Shown here piece after piece: positions 25,404-33,976 of a stretch of 33,976 nucleotides of DNA. This DNA is from Alphaproteobacteria bacterium. Lineage in GTDB: Bacteria; Pseudomonadota; Alphaproteobacteria; Bin95. The notes beneath the pieces are model-generated. The model saw only the letters and a list, made by a program, of their open reading frames with translations, did no database searches and was not told the origin of the DNA. How positions within the stretch are numbered: position 1 is the first letter of the stretch; each line of letters opens with the position of its first letter. The position numbers and the translations under genes were made by a program. The DNA is taken from positions 1-33,976 of the forward strand of contig JAPORR010000009.1 of assembly GCA_026710105.1 (NCBI GenBank). Direction: 5' to 3'.

Positions 25404-26279
25404 TCACGCCGCCTGCGGCTGTTCGCCCTGGATCTGGGTGCGGTGCAGCCGGCGGCGCGTCGCGGCGTCGAAGGGGTCGCGGCGATGCATGGTGCAACGA
25501 TTGTCCCACAGCACCACATCACCCACCCGCCAGCGGTGGCGGTAGGTGAAGCGGTCCTGTTCAACATGGCGCCATAGCTCGTCGAGCAGCGCTTCTGAAT
25601 CCGCCACCATCATACCCTCTACATAGGAGTTGAGCCGCCGGCCGAGATAGAGCACGGGCCGCCCGCTCTCCGGATGCACTGGCACGGCCGGATGGCTGGC
25701 GCCGGGCACTTGGCTCACATCCGCCACCTCGTCAAAGCCGGCACGCAGATAGCCGCCAGAATTGACGCTCGAATCGTGGCGCAGACGAGCGGACTCCAAC
25801 TGGGCGCGTAGCGTCGGCGGAAGGGCCTCCAGCGCGGCATACATGTTCAGGAACCAGGTGTCGCCACCCTCCGGCGGGATTTCCAACGCATAGAGCGCGC
25901 TCGCCTTGGGCGGGCGCTCTTCATAGCTCATATCGGTATGCCAGGACGCCTCCCCGGCGCCAAGCGAGCCGATGGGTTTGCCGTCCTTGACGATGTTGGA
26001 AATCACATAGAGTTCTGGCACGCCTTCCACCATGGTCTGGCCGTTTTCCATGATCGGCGCATGGTCGAGCTTGCCAAAGCGCGAGGAGAAGGCGACGAAA
26101 TCCGTATCCGTCAGCGTCTGCCCGCGAAACACCAGCACGCCATGCTCAATCCAGGCAGCGTGAATCGCGGCGAAGGTCTTGTTATTGAGTGGCCGGGAGA
26201 GGTCCACCCCCTCGATCATGGCGCCCAGCGCAGCCCCTGTCGGCACGGCTGCGACGATCTGCTCGACACCTTCCGGCAT
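25404..26279 (-). CDS. TauD/TfdA-family Fe(II)/2-oxoglutarate-dependent dioxygenase
   Basis: A 291-residue non-haem iron dioxygenase of the taurine/2,4-D dioxygenase family, which hydroxylates a substrate while decarboxylating 2-oxoglutarate. The iron triad is visible as H114 and D116 in ASWHTDMSYEERPPKAS and H264 in DNRCTMHRRDPF; the arginine that binds 2-oxoglutarate lies in AATRRRLHRTQI. GGEA-type length and the VFRGQTLTDTDFVAFSSRFG segment are typical. AGGAGG lies nine bases before the ATG. Taurine, other sulfonates and aromatic ethers are family substrates; this one is not predictable. It sits at the border of the phosphonate island, 154 bases after the PhnM-like gene, so a part in organophosphonate or sulfonate use is possible but unproven. 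Confidence 0.88.
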   Translation of the reverse strand: MPEGVEQIVAAVPTGAALGAMIEGVDLSRPLNNKTFAAIHAAWIEHGVLVFRGQTLTDTDFVAFSSRFGKLDHAPIMENGQTMVEGVPELYVISNIVKDGKPIGSLGAGEASWHTDMSYEERPPKASALYALEIPPEGGDTWFLNMYAALEALPPTLRAQLESARLRHDSSVNSGGYLRAGFDEVADVSQVPGASHPAVPVHPESGRPVLYLGRRLNSYVEGMMVADSEALLDELWRHVEQDRFTYRHRWRVGDVVLWDNRCTMHRRDPFDAATRRRLHRTQIQGEQPQAA

Positions 26280-26433: not shown

Positions 26434-27594
26434 TCAGTGGATACCCGTAACCCATCCGCCGGCGATAGTCGTCCTTGGCCGAGGAAGGATGCCCTTGTTC
26501 ACGTCGACGATGACGATATCGGCGCGCTTGCCTTCGGCGATTTCACCACGGTCGTCCAGACCTGCGGCTTTGGCCGGGGCACTCGAAATGAACGACCACG
26601 CGTCTGCTAACGACAGGCCCTGTTCCTGGTGCAGTTTGAAGGCCGCCGCGAGTGGCGCCGGATAGTAGTAGTCGGAGGCAAGAATGGTACACAGCCCTTT
26701 GGAGATCATCTCAACGGCTGAGATGGCGCCGTTATGGCTTCCGCCGCGCACTACATTGGGGGCTCCCATGACGATCGGGTTGTCGTAAGTGCGGGCTTGC
26801 GCCGCCGTCTCTTCGGTTTCGGGGAACTCGCAGATCTCACACCCCAAATCGTTGTAGTAGCTTCGGGTTTCGGGCGAGGCGTCATCGTGCGAGAGCTGCC
26901 GGATGCCACTGTCACGGGCTGCCGCTGCCAGCTTTTCAACCGCTTCTCGCACCTGGTCCTTCCTAGCCATGACCTCTTCCATATAGGCCACAAATTCCAC
27001 CTCCGACATGCCAGTCCGATGGGCGTATTTGGACATCTCGGAGAAATCGTTCCGTTTGGCATAGATCTCCGGGAAGTGGTCATTGAACGCGAGGAGGCCG
27101 ATCCGGCCCGCACGAATCCAATCAGCAACTTCGTCTGCCGCTGGCGTATTGTATGTCTCGAAGCGGATATGGACGTGTGTGTCACACCGTAAGTGTCCTT
27201 TCAAATCCTCCCTTGTCTCCATCAGCCGGACGAAGTTGTCGCGCCCACGCAGTCCGGGCTCCCACGAATATGTAATTCCGTGAAAGGCCGTCGTGATTCC
27301 ATTCGCAATCATCTGGCTATCGGTATCCAGCAACGCCAGGCCGAGATCGAACTGAACATTCGGCCGCGGCATAATTTGGCGCTCGAAGGCGTCACCATGG
27401 ATATCGACGATCCCCGGCAGAACGAAACCTCCCGCCGCATCCACCACCCGGAGGAGTGACACAGGGTCCGGATCGGTGCCCAATGCCGCGATGAGCCCAT
27501 CGCAGACGAGGACATTCGTCCGGGCAATGTCGCCATCGGCCAACACCACGCGACCGTTGGTGATCAATATCGATGGGGGGTGCTGAGCATCCAT
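26434..27594 (-). CDS. Second PhnM-like amidohydrolase
   Basis: A 386-residue metal-dependent hydrolase of the PhnM group. PhnM removes diphosphate from alpha-D-ribose 1-methylphosphonate 5-triphosphate to give the PhnJ substrate. Visible are the amidohydrolase VLPGIVDIHGDAFER (metal HxD at H66 and D68), PRPNVQFD, a FNDHFPE stretch matching the MDHTPGQ region of PhnM, SHDDAS (H236-D238) and MGAPNVVRGGSHNG. The substitutions against canonical PhnM are consistent: HGDAFER replaces H(S/T)DNxxK and HIRFET replaces HxRCEL. Since a canonical PhnM lies on the other arm of this cluster, this is a paralog with possibly altered specificity. The ATG follows GAGG by nine bases. Confidence 0.85.
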   Translation of the reverse strand: MDAQHPPSILITNGRVVLADGDIARTNVLVCDGLIAALGTDPDPVSLLRVVDAAGGFVLPGIVDIHGDAFERQIMPRPNVQFDLGLALLDTDSQMIANGITTAFHGITYSWEPGLRGRDNFVRLMETREDLKGHLRCDTHVHIRFETYNTPAADEVADWIRAGRIGLLAFNDHFPEIYAKRNDFSEMSKYAHRTGMSEVEFVAYMEEVMARKDQVREAVEKLAAAARDSGIRQLSHDDASPETRSYYNDLGCEICEFPETEETAAQARTYDNPIVMGAPNVVRGGSHNGAISAVEMISKGLCTILASDYYYPAPLAAAFKLHQEQGLSLADAWSFISSAPAKAAGLDDRGEIAEGKRADIVIVDVNKGILPRPRTTIAGGWVTGIH

Positions 27595-27825
27595 TCTTTT
27601 TGTCCTCGCCAAACTGACCCCGCTTATAGGGCATCAATTTGGCGGTTCGATGAAACTGCTGGATGAAAAGCCACCTCGACGAACTGACATGCGCCTTGCT
27701 GTGCTTGCTGCCATAATCGGGCTGTCCCCCTGAGTCGTCGAACAGGCTCAAATCATGACCCCTGTGGTTCAGAAGTCGGATGCTTCGGTGAGCGTCCAAG
27801 TAATTCACGGAATCCCCCTCATGAG
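27595..27825. other. 231-base gap between the DUF1045 gene and the PhnM-like gene
   Basis: Both flanking genes are on the minus strand, so this stretch holds the 5' leader of the PhnM-like gene, including GCGAGGAC before its ATG. Short open frames here (up to about 50 codons) have no recognised relatives. I see no convincing promoter, terminator or RNA. The gap is long for an operon and suggests separate expression or a past deletion, for example of phnN. Confidence 0.4.
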
Positions 27826-28536
27826 TCAGAGGCAACCGCCTCTGGTAGAACCGGTCAGTTCGAATCGTTTGATAGCCTGAAAGGGAACACCGGCCTCAAT
27901 TTGCTCACATAGGGTAACGGCATCGACCCAGAACTCGTCGTCGCACAGGGGTTTCAGCATCGGCAGCAATGTTTCGGCAAGGCGCTGCCGCGTCCCGTCT
28001 TCCAGCCATCCGGTCAAGGTGAGGTGGAACCGGAATTCCTCCAACACGTAGGGATATCCCCAAGTCAGAAGATACTCTTCCTGGCGTGCCGTAAGACCGT
28101 GACGCCGGCGCCGGGCAAGCTCTTCCTCCGACGGCGGCGCACGGAATCGATCGAACTCACGGACACATGCGGCGGCGAATCGGTTTAATTCCGGCGCCGT
28201 TGCACTCGGGACCAATGCCAGGAATCCGTTCAAGTCCTTGAGCATTAGGCTGGGTACGCGGAAGGATGCGCGGGTGCTGACAAAGTTAGCAAGATGCTCA
28301 AACACCTGTCCCAGATCCGTATCCTCGGCCAGCTGGAAAGGCGGTTTCAGGGTTCCATGAAATCCATAAACCGCCGGCGTTTCTGTAGCTTGGCGCAATT
28401 CACCCTCTGGCAGAGAATCGATCGAAATCTGTGACATCGCTGCGCCAGAACAAACGTCCCAGCCTAGCCATCGAGTACCAAACTCCCCTAGTGGGCTCTG
28501 GGGTTTGGGAACAAAGTAAAGTGCATAGCGGGGCAT
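27826..28536 (-). CDS. DUF1045 phosphonate-operon protein with 2H phosphoesterase motifs
   Basis: A 236-residue member of the DUF1045 family, found in alphaproteobacterial C-P lyase clusters. It has two HxT motifs, H60-G-T62 in YGFHGTLKPPF and H171-L-T173 in FRFHLTLTGW, spaced as in the two-histidine (2H) phosphoesterase fold; the duplicated lobes start with YALYFVP and end with FELTG. 2H enzymes open cyclic phosphates, including ADP-ribose 1'',2''-cyclic phosphate. C-P lyase produces 5-phosphoribosyl 1,2-cyclic phosphate, normally opened by PhnP, which is not seen here, so this protein could serve that step; that is inference. It begins at an ATG in the promoter gap shared with phnG. Confidence 0.87.
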   Translation of the reverse strand: MPRYALYFVPKPQSPLGEFGTRWLGWDVCSGAAMSQISIDSLPEGELRQATETPAVYGFHGTLKPPFQLAEDTDLGQVFEHLANFVSTRASFRVPSLMLKDLNGFLALVPSATAPELNRFAAACVREFDRFRAPPSEEELARRRRHGLTARQEEYLLTWGYPYVLEEFRFHLTLTGWLEDGTRQRLAETLLPMLKPLCDDEFWVDAVTLCEQIEAGVPFQAIKRFELTGSTRGGCL

Positions 28537-28663: not shown

Positions 28664-28706
28664 CGAGAGCAATCCATAAACGCCAAATTCAATGGAAGAT
28701 ACACAG

Positions 28707-29183
28707 ATGTCCATTGTGGATAGGCGCGGGGAATCGCGTATCGAAGACCGGCAGTACTGGATGTCGATCCTATCCAAGGCCGATCCTCGGCAATTGCAAA
28801 AAATCTGGGAAAACACAGATGCAAAGCCTGATTTCATACATCTGCGCCAGCCGGAAACCGGGTTGATAATGGTCCGCGCGCGTGCCGGCGGGACCGGTCA
28901 GCGTTTCAACTTCGGGGAGATGACCGTGACTCGCTGTACCGTCGTCCTCAAGGATGGCACACAGGGGTTCGGATATGTTGCCGGTACAGATCGGCGCCAT
29001 GCCGAACTTGCAGCCGTGTTCGACGCAATGATGTTGTCGAGCGAGGATCGGGAGCCCCTTGAAGAATGGCTTTTGGCACCGCTCGCTAAAGCCTATACCG
29101 AGCGTCGCCAAACCGAATCCGCCAAATCGGCGGCGACTAAGGTGGACTTCTTTACCGTTGTGCGGGGGGAGGGGCCGAAATGA
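28707..29183 (+). CDS. phnG: Phosphonate C-P lyase subunit PhnG
   Basis: PhnG is part of the PhnGHIJ core complex; with PhnI, PhnH and PhnL it attaches the phosphonate to the ribose of ATP with loss of adenine. The 158-residue chain carries the family's YWMSILSKADPRQLQKIW start, RQPETGLIMVRARAGGTGQRFNFGEMTVTRCTV core and GYVAGTDRRHAELAAVFDAM, including the arginine/histidine pair near the subunit interface. I chose the ATG eight bases after GGAAG; an in-frame ATG 15 bases upstream (MEDTQ) is an alternative. The stop overlaps phnH by four bases (ATGA). It is the first gene of the plus-strand arm. Confidence 0.95.
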   Translation: MSIVDRRGESRIEDRQYWMSILSKADPRQLQKIWENTDAKPDFIHLRQPETGLIMVRARAGGTGQRFNFGEMTVTRCTVVLKDGTQGFGYVAGTDRRHAELAAVFDAMMLSSEDREPLEEWLLAPLAKAYTERRQTESAKSAATKVDFFTVVRGEGPK

Positions 29184-29794
29184 CACGGCTCGCTGCGCCC
29201 GCCACTCGCCGGGAGATACCCCCCGGATTCGCTGATCCTGTATTCGATGCCCAGTCGATCTTTCGCCATGTCCTGACGGCGATGTCGGAACCGGGCACCA
29301 TCATTCACATAGGAGGCGAGTTGGACCCGCCGTCTCCCCTCGGTCATGCAAGTGCTGCCCTTGCGCTTACGCTGATGGATTTCGAGACCCCCATATGGCT
29401 CGACGGCCCGGTGGCGGCGGCAGCTTCCGACTGGGTGCGTTTTCACTGCGGCGCCCCGCTCACTCAGACCGAATCGGAGGCAACTTTCGCAATTATGAGC
29501 GAAGCACCCAACTGCCTTCCGTTGACCCGGTTCAATAGGGGGACTGACGAGTATCCGGAGCACGGCGCAACATTGATCATTCAAGTGGTCGCGATTGAAG
29601 CGGAGGGCACATTATCGCTCACCGGACCTGGCATCGACGGCAGCCGCTCGATCGATGTCATCGGTATGCCCCAGGACTTCTGGGAGCAACGCGCCCAAAC
29701 CAACTCACTGTTCCCGCGCGGCGTCGATCTGATTCTAACCGCTGCCGAGGTTGCCGTAGCCATTCCGCGAACAACGTTTGTGGAGCCTATGTAA
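29180..29794 (+). CDS. phnH: Phosphonate C-P lyase subunit PhnH
   Basis: PhnH belongs to the C-P lyase core complex and, although it has a PLP-transferase-like fold, binds no PLP. The 204-residue length and the sequence PGFADPVFDAQSIFRHVLTAMSEPGTI at the N-terminus are typical, as are PPSPLGHASAALALTLMDFETPIWL, the middle ATLIIQV strand, LTGPGIDG and the C-terminal NSLFPRGVDLILTA motif. Its last base is the first base of the phnI start codon (TAATG). Confidence 0.95.
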   Translation: MTRLAAPATRREIPPGFADPVFDAQSIFRHVLTAMSEPGTIIHIGGELDPPSPLGHASAALALTLMDFETPIWLDGPVAAAASDWVRFHCGAPLTQTESEATFAIMSEAPNCLPLTRFNRGTDEYPEHGATLIIQVVAIEAEGTLSLTGPGIDGSRSIDVIGMPQDFWEQRAQTNSLFPRGVDLILTAAEVAVAIPRTTFVEPM

Positions 29795-30891
29795 TGTATG
29801 TGGCGGTTAAAGGTGGCGAGAAGGCCATCGAGAATTCCCTCAAACTGCTTGCCGAAGAGCGCCGCGGCGACTCGAATGTGCCGGTGCTCACCCTCGAGCA
29901 GATCAAGTCCCAAATGGCTATCGCGGTCGACCGGGTGATGACCGAAGGATCGATTTACGACCGGGATTTAGCCGCCCTCGCAATCAAACAAGCTCAGGGC
30001 GACATCATCGAGGCGGTCTTTCTGCTCCGCGCTTACCGTACGACCCTGCCGCGCTTCGGTGTCTCCAAGCCGGTCGATACGGCGAAGATGGCGATTCGCC
30101 GGCGTATCTCGGCGACCTATAAGGACCTACCGGGTGGGCAAGTTCTTGGCCCCACCTATGATTATACCCACCGCCTCTTAGATTTCGATCTTGCCGATCA
30201 TCATGTAAACCGCCCGGAGGCCGCACCAACAGCTCCCAGGGCAGTTGCTGATGGCATGCCCCGGGTGACTGATATTCTAAACTCCGAAGGGCTGATCGAA
30301 GAAGAGGCAACAGAACCAGAAACCAGACAGGTTGCGGACCTCACCCGCGAACCGCTTGATTTCCCCGCCGATCGCGACGTACGCCTCCAGAATCTCGCCC
30401 GCGGCGACGAGGGATTTCTTCTGGCGCTTGGCTATTCATCGCAGCGTGGCTACGGCAATACGCACCCCTTTGCCGGTGAAATTCGCATGGGTAAGGTCTC
30501 GGTGGAGATCGAGCCCGAGGAACTCGGGTTTGCCATCGATATCGGCGATATCCAGCTGACCGAATGCCAGATGATCAACCAGTTCCAGGGCACCGCGGAG
30601 ACGCCACCACAATTCACCCGCGGCTATGGTTTGGCATTCGGCCAATGCGAGCGCAAGGCGATGGCCATGGCACTGGTCGATCGCTCGCTCCGCTCGCGGG
30701 AGCTCGGCGAAGAAACCACCTCACCGGCCCAGGACGAGGAGTTCGTCCTCTACCACACAGACAATGTCGAAGCGTCAGGCTTTCTGCAGCATCTGAAACT
30801 GCCCCACTATGTCGACTTCCAATCCGAACTGGAGTTGGTCCGGCGCTTGCGCGGCGAGTACGAGGCCCGCCGACAGCAGACAGCGGAGTAG
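29794..30891 (+). CDS. phnI: Phosphonate C-P lyase subunit PhnI
   Basis: PhnI is the nucleosidase subunit: it displaces adenine from ATP with the phosphonate, helped by PhnG, PhnH and PhnL. The 365-residue protein starts MYVAVKGGEKAIENSLKLL, the family signature, followed by QIKSQMAIAVDRVMTEGSIYDRDLAALAIKQAQGD, RRISATYKDLPGGQVLGPTYDYTHRLLDFDL and the C-terminal LALGYSSQRGYGNTHPFAGEIRMG, TECQMINQFQ and YGLAFGQCERKAMAMALVDRSL regions. It is translated in a one-base overlap with phnH and ends four bases before phnJ. Confidence 0.97.
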   Translation: MYVAVKGGEKAIENSLKLLAEERRGDSNVPVLTLEQIKSQMAIAVDRVMTEGSIYDRDLAALAIKQAQGDIIEAVFLLRAYRTTLPRFGVSKPVDTAKMAIRRRISATYKDLPGGQVLGPTYDYTHRLLDFDLADHHVNRPEAAPTAPRAVADGMPRVTDILNSEGLIEEEATEPETRQVADLTREPLDFPADRDVRLQNLARGDEGFLLALGYSSQRGYGNTHPFAGEIRMGKVSVEIEPEELGFAIDIGDIQLTECQMINQFQGTAETPPQFTRGYGLAFGQCERKAMAMALVDRSLRSRELGEETTSPAQDEEFVLYHTDNVEASGFLQHLKLPHYVDFQSELELVRRLRGEYEARRQQTAE

Positions 30892-30895
30892 ACCC

Positions 30896-31837
30896 ATGAA
30901 CGAGCAGACCATTCCCGCATCAGGGACACCAGCCAGCGGCAAAACGGGTTACAACTTCGCTTATCTGGATGAGCAGACCAAGCGGATGATCCGCCGCACA
31001 ATCCTGAAAGCGGTATCAATTCCCGGTTACCAAGTTCCCTTCGGCAGCCGCGAGATGCCGCTACCCTATGGATGGGGCACTGGCGGCATCCAGGTAACAG
31101 CAAGCGTCATTGGCCCTGATGATACGTTGAAGGTCATCGATCAAGGTGCCGACGACACGACCAACGCCGTTTCCATCCGTCGGTTCTTCGCCCGAACTGC
31201 CGGTGTCGCGACCACGGACGAGACCGGCGAGGCGACGGTCATTCAGACCCGGCACCGAATACCAGAAGAGCCACTGAAACATGGCCAAATACTCGTCTAC
31301 CAAGTGCCGATTCCCGAACCCCTGCGCTGGCTGGAGCCCCGGGAATCAGAAACCCGGAAGATGCACGCCCTGCAAGAATACGGGGTTATGTATGTCCGGC
31401 TATACGAAGATATCTCCAAATATGGGCACATCTCGACTGCCTACGATTATCCTGTGATTGTCAATAGCCGCTACCTAATGCGTCCGTCCCCTATCCCGAA
31501 ATTCGACAACCCCAAGATGGACAATAACCCTGCACTGCAGCTGTTCGGCGCTGGCCGCGAGAAGCGCATCTATGCGGTGCCGCCTTACACCTCAGTCAAA
31601 AGCCTGGATTTCAAGGATTACCCATTCGAGATCCAGAAATGGGAGGAAGATTGTGCTCTGTGCGGCGCTGAAAACAGTTTTCTTGACGAGATCATTATCG
31701 ACGATCAGGGAGGCCGCATGTTCGTCTGCTCGGATTCGGATTATTGCCAGAAGCGCCGTGAGGCCGGCTACCGGGGCAAGGATCCGAGCGCACCGAGGGG
31801 CAATGAACTACTTGACGACGCCGCGGAGTCAGCCTGA
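30896..31837 (+). CDS. phnJ: C-P lyase PhnJ (radical SAM iron-sulfur enzyme)
   Basis: PhnJ cleaves the carbon-phosphorus bond of ribose 1-phosphonate 5-phosphate, releasing an alkane and 5-phosphoribosyl 1,2-cyclic phosphate. It is a non-canonical radical SAM enzyme. The 313-residue protein has the exact cluster pattern CX2CX21CX5C at C253, C256, C278 and C284. The N-terminal GYNFAYLDEQTKRMIRRTILKAVSIPGYQVPFGSREMP region includes the glycines around the proposed glycyl-radical site, and PYGWGTGGIQVT is conserved. The ATG lies four bases after phnI; the longer upstream frame lies inside phnI. The stop shares a base with phnK. Confidence 0.97.
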   Translation: MNEQTIPASGTPASGKTGYNFAYLDEQTKRMIRRTILKAVSIPGYQVPFGSREMPLPYGWGTGGIQVTASVIGPDDTLKVIDQGADDTTNAVSIRRFFARTAGVATTDETGEATVIQTRHRIPEEPLKHGQILVYQVPIPEPLRWLEPRESETRKMHALQEYGVMYVRLYEDISKYGHISTAYDYPVIVNSRYLMRPSPIPKFDNPKMDNNPALQLFGAGREKRIYAVPPYTSVKSLDFKDYPFEIQKWEEDCALCGAENSFLDEIIIDDQGGRMFVCSDSDYCQKRREAGYRGKDPSAPRGNELLDDAAESA

Positions 31838-32622
31838 TGACGTTGGAAGAAGAAAGGTTGCTGCTTCGTGTAACTAACCTCACCAAATACTATGATCTGA
31901 TCATCGGTTGCCGGAACATCAGCTTTGATCTCTACCGGGGCGAAGTGCTGGGCATCGTCGGCGAGTCGGGATCAGGTAAGTCGACGCTATTGAACTGTAT
32001 CTCCGCGCGTATGGAGCCGTCCGCCGGCATGGTCGAATACGATACGCGCGCGGAAGGGCTGAAAGACCTGTTCCAGCTTTCCGAGGCGGAACGGCGGATG
32101 TTAATGCGCACCGATTGGGGGTTCGTCCATCAAAATCCCTGCGATGGTCTGCGCATGGGGGTCAGCGCCGGCGCCAATATCGGCGAGCGGCTGATGGCGG
32201 TCGGAGCTCGTGTCTACGGCGATATCCGAGAGTCGGCTAGCGCGTGGCTCACGCGGGTGGAGTTCGATACTGACCGTATGGATCATCTGCCCCGCACATT
32301 CTCGGGCGGTATGCAGCAGCGGGTACAGATTGCGCGTAACTTGGTCACTGAACCGCGCCTCGTGTTCATGGACGAGCCCACCGGCGGTCTTGATGTTTCG
32401 GTCCAGGCCCGGCTGCTCGATCTGTTGCGCAAACTGGTAGATGACCTCGGATTGTCGGCGATCATCGTTACCCACGATCTGACTGTCGCCCGGATGCTAT
32501 CCCATCGCCTGATAGTGATGCGGGGCGGCGAAGTGGTGGAAAGCGGTCTCACCGATCAGGTGCTCGATGACCCTCAGCACCCCTACAGCCAGCTGCTGGT
32601 CTCGTCGATCCTGCAGGCCTAG
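31837..32622 (+). CDS. phnK: C-P lyase-associated ABC ATPase PhnK
   Basis: PhnK is a soluble ABC-type ATPase that docks on the PhnGHIJ core rather than driving import. The 261-residue chain has Walker A GESGSGKST (42-50), the Q-loop FVHQNPCDGLRMGVSAG, signature FSGGMQQRVQIARNL, Walker B LVFMDEPTGGLD and the H-loop VTHDLTVARM. The sequence and order (J, K, L) match PhnK rather than an oligopeptide importer ATPase, its nearest look-alike family. No partner permease gene lies beside it. Confidence 0.95.
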   Translation: MTLEEERLLLRVTNLTKYYDLIIGCRNISFDLYRGEVLGIVGESGSGKSTLLNCISARMEPSAGMVEYDTRAEGLKDLFQLSEAERRMLMRTDWGFVHQNPCDGLRMGVSAGANIGERLMAVGARVYGDIRESASAWLTRVEFDTDRMDHLPRTFSGGMQQRVQIARNLVTEPRLVFMDEPTGGLDVSVQARLLDLLRKLVDDLGLSAIIVTHDLTVARMLSHRLIVMRGGEVVESGLTDQVLDDPQHPYSQLLVSSILQA

Positions 32623-32631
32623 GAGCGTCAT

Positions 32632-33345
32632 ATGACCAAGCAATATTCGAGTGTATCTCTAGCCGTCAAAGATCTCTCGAAAACCTTCGTGTTGCATGAA
32701 CAGGGCGGTACGAAGCTACCGGTGCTCAATGCCTTTGACATGCAAGTGTTAGGAGGCGAGTGCGTTGCTCTAGTCGGTCCATCCGGAGCCGGTAAGTCGA
32801 CGCTGCTCAAATGCATCTACGCCAACTATCTGAGCGATTCGGGTTCCATCAGGATCAACCTCGATGACACCACGCATGATATCCGGAGCGCTCCACCGCG
32901 AGAAATCGTAAGGCTGCGAAAAAGCACTATCGGGTACGTATCTCAGTTTCTGCGGGTGATTCCGCGAGTTTCCTCCCTTGACGTGGTGGGCGAACCGCTT
33001 CGTTCCATTGGCGTAGACGAGAGACTGGCATCGGACAAAGCTCGCGAACTGCTGACTCGTCTGAATATTCCGGAGCGCCTGTGGCCGCTACCGCCGGCCA
33101 CTTTCTCGGGTGGCGAGCAGCAGCGGGTGAACATCGCCCGGGGCTTTGCTATCGACTATCCGGTGCTGTTGCTCGATGAGCCGACCGCCGCACTTGATCG
33201 TGCCAATGGTGAGGTTGTCATTGAACTGATCAATGAAGCGAAAGACCGTGGCGCCGCCATCATAGGGATTTTCCACGACGAGGAAGTGCGGGACGCTGTA
33301 GCGACCAGCGTCGCTGAGGTCGCCCCCATTCAGAGGGCAGCCTGA
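32632..33345 (+). CDS. phnL: C-P lyase-associated ABC ATPase PhnL
   Basis: PhnL is the second ABC ATPase of the C-P lyase pathway and is required for the nucleosidase step with PhnI. The 237-residue protein has Walker [11 protein letters not shown] (49-58), the Q-loop region [15 protein letters not shown], the signature [15 protein letters not shown] and Walker [13 protein letters not shown], ending with a degenerate H-loop [12 protein letters not shown], which is typical of PhnL. AGGAG lies before the ATG, nine bases after phnK. Confidence 0.96.
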
Positions 33346-33348
33346 GCC

Positions 33349-33976
33349 ATGACAGAGTTGCTTCTCACCAACGCGCAGCTGGTACTCAGCGATCGAGTGG
33401 TACGCGGGACGCTTCGAGCGCAGGACGGACAAATTCGCGACATCGATGAAAGCCAGACCACCGTGTCAGACGCCATCGATTGCGGTGGCGACTATGTGCT
33501 GCCTGGGTTGGTCGAGCTTCACTCCGACAATATGGAGAAACACTTTGCGCCGCGGCCTGGCGTGCAGTGGCCTGAGCTCTCAGCGGCAATCGCCCATGAT
33601 GCGCAAATGGCAGCGGCAGGGATCACAACGGTGTTCGACGCTCTCCGGGTCGGCGATAGTTTTCGGCAGGCCGAGAACAGGGGCGACCGTTTCCTTCGCA
33701 TGGCCCACGCGATTCGGGATGCCCGGGATAACGATACCTTCAGAGCTGATCACAAAATTCATATCCGGTGCGAGCTGTGCCACGCCGATGTGATCCAAAG
33801 CTTCGAGAAACTATCGGCGGAGCCTGAAGTTTGCTTGGTTTCGCTGATGGATCACACGCCAGGCCAACGCCAATTTGTCGATATCGGCAAGTTCGCCGAG
33901 TACTATCAGGGCAAGTATGGGCTCACCGATAATGAACTGGCCGATTACATGCGCGACCTCAAATGGGCGCACGAAG
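33349..33976 (+). CDS. phnM: Canonical PhnM (5' part, cut by window end)
   Basis: About 209 N-terminal residues of alpha-D-ribose 1-methylphosphonate 5-triphosphate diphosphatase are present. The start is an ATG three bases after the phnL stop. The sequence follows well-studied PhnM closely: YVLPGLVELHSDNMEKHFAPRPGVQWPE with the metal-binding HxD, GITTVFDALRVGD, KIHIRCELCH, VSLMDHTPGQRQF and YYQGKYGLTDNELADYM. The remaining part, including the SHDDA motif, lies beyond the window. It gives the cluster a regular PhnM in addition to the divergent paralog on the other strand. Confidence 0.95.
   Translation, partial: MTELLLTNAQLVLSDRVVRGTLRAQDGQIRDIDESQTTVSDAIDCGGDYVLPGLVELHSDNMEKHFAPRPGVQWPELSAAIAHDAQMAAAGITTVFDALRVGDSFRQAENRGDRFLRMAHAIRDARDNDTFRADHKIHIRCELCHADVIQSFEKLSAEPEVCLVSLMDHTPGQRQFVDIGKFAEYYQGKYGLTDNELADYMRDLKWAHE

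Follow-up and report, generated by a model that had tools for sequence, protein, structure and literature searches.

The DUF1045 gene and its C-P lyase locus

The window analysed here, a 33,976-nucleotide stretch of alphaproteobacterial DNA, carries a set of C-P lyase genes in which the gene for a DUF1045 protein lies between phnM on the minus strand and phnGHIJKL on the plus strand (Table 1). The original prediction had located this gene and its two H-x-T motifs correctly, and its strand can now be supplied: the plus strand of the interval has many stop codons, and the gene runs from position 28536 down to 27826 on the minus strand. PhnJ is the C-P bond-cleaving subunit and makes 5-phosphoribosyl 1,2-cyclic phosphate (PRcP), while PhnM is the RPnTP diphosphatase. 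The longest reading frame of the complete phnM opens with a TTG at 27612, although the ATG listed in Table 1 is its likely start. The locus also holds part of a second phnM-like gene, cut short by the end of the contig; a marine Rhodobacteraceae cluster likewise has two phnM copies (PMC3840354). The 3.35-Mb genome as a whole contains a single DUF1045 gene, and no phnN turned up on 20 of its other contigs (the genome has 246). A TauD-family dioxygenase gene lies directly downstream of phnM, and a role for it in phosphonate use is possible.

Table 1. Coordinates of the genes discussed; positions refer to the window unless another locus is named
Feature	Position	Strand	Basis
TauD-family dioxygenase gene, downstream of phnM	25404..26279	-	
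phnM, co-directional with and downstream of the DUF1045 gene	26434..27597	-	NF011987 462 bits, TIGR02318 352 bits
DUF1045/TIGR03223 2H-type protein, 236 aa, ATG start, proposed PRcP phosphodiesterase	27826..28536	-	translation, NCBIfam, Pfam, AlphaFold, Foldseek
phnG, divergent from the DUF1045 gene	28692..29183	+	TIGR03293 170 bits
phnH	29180..29794	+	TIGR03292 197 bits
phnI	29794..30891	+	PF05861 562 bits
phnJ	30893..31837	+	PF06007 503 bits
phnK	31837..32622	+	TIGR02323 381 bits
phnL	32632..33345	+	TIGR02324 331 bits
Second phnM-like gene, truncated by contig end at 33976	33349..33976	+	sequence, translation
Dead PhnP beside intact DUF1045, first of two related genomes	L259 5265-6005	-	
Dead PhnP beside intact DUF1045, second of two related genomes	L281 4879-5679	-	
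2H-like protein adjoining phnM, Nostoc sp. WHI	L179 15117-15743	+	
2H-like protein adjoining phnM, G1074	L282 10470-11093	-	

Family membership is far above chance. The protein scores 255 bits against NCBIfam TIGR03223, "putative phosphonate metabolism protein" (cut-off 248.95; still a "hypothetical equivalog" in NCBI's June 2026 model), and 180 bits against Pfam PF06299, the DUF1045 family (cut-off 24.3). There is also a sub-threshold Pfam match to 2_5_RNA_ligase2, and among the NCBIfam families no PhnP model (TIGR03307) is matched. The motifs H60-G-T62 and H171-L-T173 sit at the predicted residues and provide the two H-x-T/S elements of the 2H superfamily. R3, G25, H60, T62, P66, F105, G160, H171 and L174 are invariant in an alignment of 47 homologues, and identity to the other aligned members ranges from 31 to 45%. 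Across 68 DUF1045 rows, some of them duplicates, H60, T62, H171 and T173 are near invariant; each of the two histidines is preserved in 67 rows, and the rows that have lost one of them are paralogues encoded at a distance from phn genes in two Rhizobiaceae-like genomes. The AlphaFold model (pLDDT 95.9, pTM 0.91) has the two-lobed 2H fold that had been proposed from the motifs. A search of the PDB by sequence returned no significant relative of the family; high-ranking Foldseek matches to the model are mostly 2H proteins, including YjcG, Arabidopsis cyclic phosphodiesterase, LigT and Usb1. The plant enzyme among these closest matches is one that opens ADP-ribose 1'',2''-cyclic phosphate.

Distribution of DUF1045 and PhnP

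No PhnP had been noticed in the window, and none exceeds the cut-off in the genome as a whole. The best match to the PhnP profile reaches 41.7 bits, where the cut-off is 272; it is a metallo-beta-lactamase gene (C38:7143-7898) between tatD and mazG, neighbours whose names were assigned by eye, and we rejected it as a PhnP on account of both its score and this neighbourhood. This PhnP-like metallo-beta-lactamase beside tatD continues in frame into a MazG-like domain in an apparent gene fusion (L070 1144-2757, C38).

Our first survey set comprised 397 Pseudomonadota genomes, of which 103 have PhnJ and 90 have DUF1045 over the cut-off; G180, G234 and G349, where DUF1045 is matched weakly, were not counted as having a member. 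DUF1045 occurs in 76 of the 103 PhnJ genomes as against 14 of the 294 without PhnJ, and in every one of the 71 alphaproteobacterial PhnJ genomes. When whole genomes were searched, PhnP over the cut-off was found in none of the 76 genomes that combine PhnJ with DUF1045 and in 25 of the 27 that have PhnJ without DUF1045; all 71 PhnJ alphaproteobacteria surveyed lack it. The second set consists of 57 PhnJ genomes (the 50 behind the named PhnJ loci and seven further gammaproteobacteria, with possible near relatives between the sets). Here 24 have DUF1045 only, 24 have PhnP over the cut-off only, one (Kuenenia) has a divergent PhnP with all active-site residues intact, five have neither and three have both. 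At none of 80 loci, taken with 10 kb on each side where available, do the two enzymes occur together. Linkage of DUF1045 to the pathway is frequent: it lies within 15 kb of phnJ in 59 of the 76 genomes with both genes and is unlinked in 17. The proposed check of phnP across DUF1045 genomes thus reveals mutual exclusion in PhnJ genomes, except where a genome has two clusters or a degenerate PhnP.

This pattern bears on an alternative in which the tatD-linked PhnP-like metallo-beta-lactamase opens PRcP, while DUF1045 either takes a different cyclic phosphate of this pathway as its substrate or serves to repair a by-product. Such a protein is available, since it is present in the genome studied here and, at 50-86 bits, in many other DUF1045 genomes. 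However, PhnP-profile matches of similar weak strength occur in 14 of 14 control genomes, of which E. coli alone has PhnJ, so the protein does not track the pathway; moreover, it resides in a tatD-metallo-beta-lactamase-mazG cluster, and its involvement would leave the exclusion between PhnP and DUF1045 unexplained. We therefore regard this alternative as improbable. A phnP gene has been reported in alphaproteobacteria such as Marivita by KEGG-type annotation (PMC8774927), and calls of this kind may rest on the tatD-linked metallo-beta-lactamase.

The three genomes of the second set with both enzymes (3/57) are informative in their own right. G741 (Rhodobacteraceae UBA6796) carries two PhnJ clusters on different contigs, one with DUF1045 and the other with PhnP. 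In G768 (Burkholderia sp. H160), PhnP accompanies one of two PhnJ genes, and a DUF1045-phnN piece and the other PhnJ lie on separate short contigs. In these two-cluster genomes, each type of cluster appears to bring its own enzyme along. The third genome, G461, has a single operon with the gene content phnCDE-GHIJKLM-DUF1045-phnN-phnP', in which both H-x-T motifs of DUF1045 are intact and PhnP' is degenerate: H76, H78, D80, H81, H143, D164 and H200 are replaced, and H222, C21, C23, C26 and H225 are kept. From the PhnP crystal structure, we take the first six of the replaced residues to be metal ligands, H200 to be catalytic, and C21, C23, C26 and H225 to form a zinc site. All twelve residues are kept in 53 of 53 other PhnPs. 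This arrangement recurs in a congener, G790, whose dead PhnP' is 78% identical and likewise lies beside an intact DUF1045, so the lesion in G461 cannot be put down to faulty sequencing. The dN/dS of the dead gene is below 1 (0.49 or 0.17, by two methods), and its protein may therefore retain a non-catalytic role. It represents one event, in 1 of 54 PhnPs, and is a strong hint of mechanism, not statistics.

The number of genomes should be read against their shared history. Many independent switches between PhnP and DUF1045 had been hoped for, yet the states need just two changes on the PhnJ tree, with 55 rows and again with 146; the many genomes thus amount to few independent evolutionary events. 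The exclusion is clean, and within families part of it reflects common ancestry of the cluster types. The strongest independent evidence comes from the genomes with two clusters and from the dead PhnP.

Several loci depart from these patterns. Two enterobacterial genomes, G320 (L138) and G323 (L139), which are related to genomes of the PhnP type, have complete C-P lyase operons and neither PhnP nor DUF1045, and nothing obvious in those operons suggests itself as a replacement enzyme. Extra, divergent PhnJ copies (379-397 bits) accompany a normal PhnJ in G067, G071, G170, G285 and G741, possibly as a second type of C-P lyase. At least 11 genomes have a clear DUF1045 and lack PhnJ; in three of them (L127, L132 and L109 in G268, G355 and G393) phnM, DUF1045 and phnN lie together as a module, perhaps a remnant, or perhaps serving the salvage of PRcP that arises from PRPP decay. 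In Rhizobiaceae-like genomes, a further DUF1045 gene lies at a distance from the phn genes (L108, L110, L135, L136). The H-x-T motifs are altered in the paralogues of L108 and L110, and those of L108, L110 and L136 are all neighboured by genes for an FAD oxidoreductase (DAO) and for Methyltransf_30; apart from this Rhizobiaceae paralogue, copies of DUF1045 unlinked to phn genes share no conserved neighbours.

Proposed reaction and its alternatives

When the named loci are restricted to those of 15 kb or more, phnN occurs at 26 of 27 loci that have PhnP, at 13 of 16 that have DUF1045 and at 2 of the 26 where neither is linked (DUF1045 loci versus neither, Fisher p = 1.9e-6), and in both phnN-positive loci of the last group the genome carries DUF1045 elsewhere. 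PhnN acts on ribose 1,5-bisphosphate, and its coupling to DUF1045 points to this compound as the DUF1045 product.

We interpret the DUF1045 protein as the enzyme that opens PRcP, towards the end of phosphonate breakdown, in species without PhnP, and give this reading a probability of about 0.86; it withstood each of the tests applied here. The protein's substrate, the bond broken and the product are those that we infer from the evidence above. The exclusion of PhnP in PhnJ genomes supports, as a predicted function, the proposal that DUF1045 opens the cyclic phosphate where PhnP is absent. H60/T62 and H171/T173, one motif in each half of the fold, would serve as general base and acid in a metal-free reaction. 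The protein would thereby fill the step that is taken in E. coli by the unrelated, metal-dependent PhnP, and its product would feed PhnN. The chemistry fits as well: in PRcP, as in the substrate of the plant enzyme, the cyclic phosphate bridges positions 1 and 2 of ribose, and opening by that enzyme leaves the phosphate at C1, where PhnN needs it.

The bond broken varies among 2H enzymes, and three of the 16 DUF1045 loci have no phnN nearby, as might be expected if DUF1045 opened PRcP on the other side to give ribose 2,5-bisphosphate, or carried it on to phosphate and ribose 5-phosphate in the manner reported for PhnPP. This outcome is less probable still than the first alternative, because PhnN often adjoins DUF1045 in the 13 remaining loci and is missing where a cluster has neither of the two enzymes, and the plant cyclic phosphodiesterase leaves its phosphate on C1''. 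The least probable alternative is that DUF1045 is an RNA 2',3'-cyclic phosphodiesterase or ligase-like protein whose place among the phn genes is accidental or regulatory: it has LigT, Usb1 and YjcG as structural relatives, certain copies show no linkage to the pathway genes and a few lack the H-x-T motifs, but the family is kept in 71 of 71 PhnJ alphaproteobacteria and in few genomes without PhnJ, and it is exclusive with PhnP.

Proteins resembling DUF1045 also occur in cyanobacterial clusters. The one in Nostoc sp. WHI follows phnM, is 208 residues long and has the motifs H42-x-T44 and H151-x-T153. Among 292 cyanobacterial genomes, the 2H-like protein was found in one besides Nostoc, where it adjoins the phnM of a different PhnJ type; both clusters are without PhnP and PhnN. 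The two proteins match the DUF1045 profile weakly (19 and 17 bits, cut-off 24.3; hhalign probability 58%). When plasmids were searched with the cyanobacterial protein as query, a single hit came up, from Streptomyces, and it has no phn genes nearby. The gene could be a second recruitment and a third solution to the PRcP step. We envision, at somewhat less than even odds, that PRcP opening is an exchangeable slot in the pathway: DUF1045 would have displaced PhnP in some lineages, leaving the dead, still conserved PhnP of G461 and G790, and cyanobacteria would separately have recruited a distantly DUF1045-like 2H protein beside phnM.

C-P lyase is one of the chief means for bacteria of sea and soil to obtain phosphorus from phosphonates; it converts methylphosphonate to methane and breaks down glyphosate. 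If the proposed role is true, it would complete the pathway in alphaproteobacteria and correct the "phnP" labels on a housekeeping metallo-beta-lactamase.

Earlier proposals and comparison with known systems

That DUF1045 stands in for PhnP is not a new proposal: it has appeared in publications from 2009 onwards. According to the part of PMC10574752 that recounts it, Podzelinska 2009 found rcsF in 16 operons without phnP and proposed it as a stand-in; Martinez 2013 (PMC3840354) and, in the account within PMC8235418, Hove-Jensen 2014 proposed the same. The best published experiment is a complementation in which a Rhodobacteraceae fosmid with rcsF and without phnP allows E. coli deleted for phnHIJKLMNOP to grow on several phosphonates, methylphosphonate included (PMC3840354); the effect is that of the whole fosmid, with rcsF not singled out. 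From its description as a 2H protein in a Rhodobacteraceae phn cluster, we infer that this rcsF is DUF1045. The phosphate-stress proteins listed for strain MED193 also include a DUF1045 protein (PMC10132767). No direct enzyme assay of DUF1045 was found in the openly accessible papers. The present analysis adds comparative evidence, including operons with a broken PhnP beside an intact DUF1045, and this arrangement makes the idea of replacement far more specific than the operon counts in print.

Nothing sets the protein apart from TIGR03223/PF06299, called rcsF in the C-P lyase papers: family, motifs and place beside phnM are the same. PhnP (TIGR03307), the metallo-beta-lactamase phosphoribosyl cyclic phosphodiesterase, shares the proposed reaction and step and has an exclusive distribution, whereas its metal-dependent chemistry and its fold are unrelated to the 2H fold of DUF1045, for which no metal site is expected. 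Arabidopsis cyclic phosphodiesterase (PDB 1fsi, 1jh6, 1jh7) aligns with the DUF1045 model at a Foldseek E-value of 2.9e-5 and a TM-score of 0.64-0.68, depending on the target. Like the role proposed for DUF1045, its reaction opens a ribose 1'',2''-cyclic phosphate, in this case on ADP-ribose 1'',2''-cyclic phosphate; the two proteins differ in that they are only about 11-12% identical and DUF1045 is longer, with an extra helical part. The best structural match to the model is B. subtilis YjcG (PDB 2d4g; E 6e-7), which is also the best, though non-significant, match by sequence in the PDB; at 13% identity, it is a putative RNA ligase-like protein with no tie to phosphonates. Loci of the Eggerthella type and from Bacillota in our sample are without PhnP, DUF1045 and PhnN. 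PhnPP of Eggerthella is a PHP-domain cyclic phosphodiesterase that acts on the same intermediate and is reported to release phosphate and ribose 5-phosphate; it differs from DUF1045 in fold and from the end product predicted for DUF1045.
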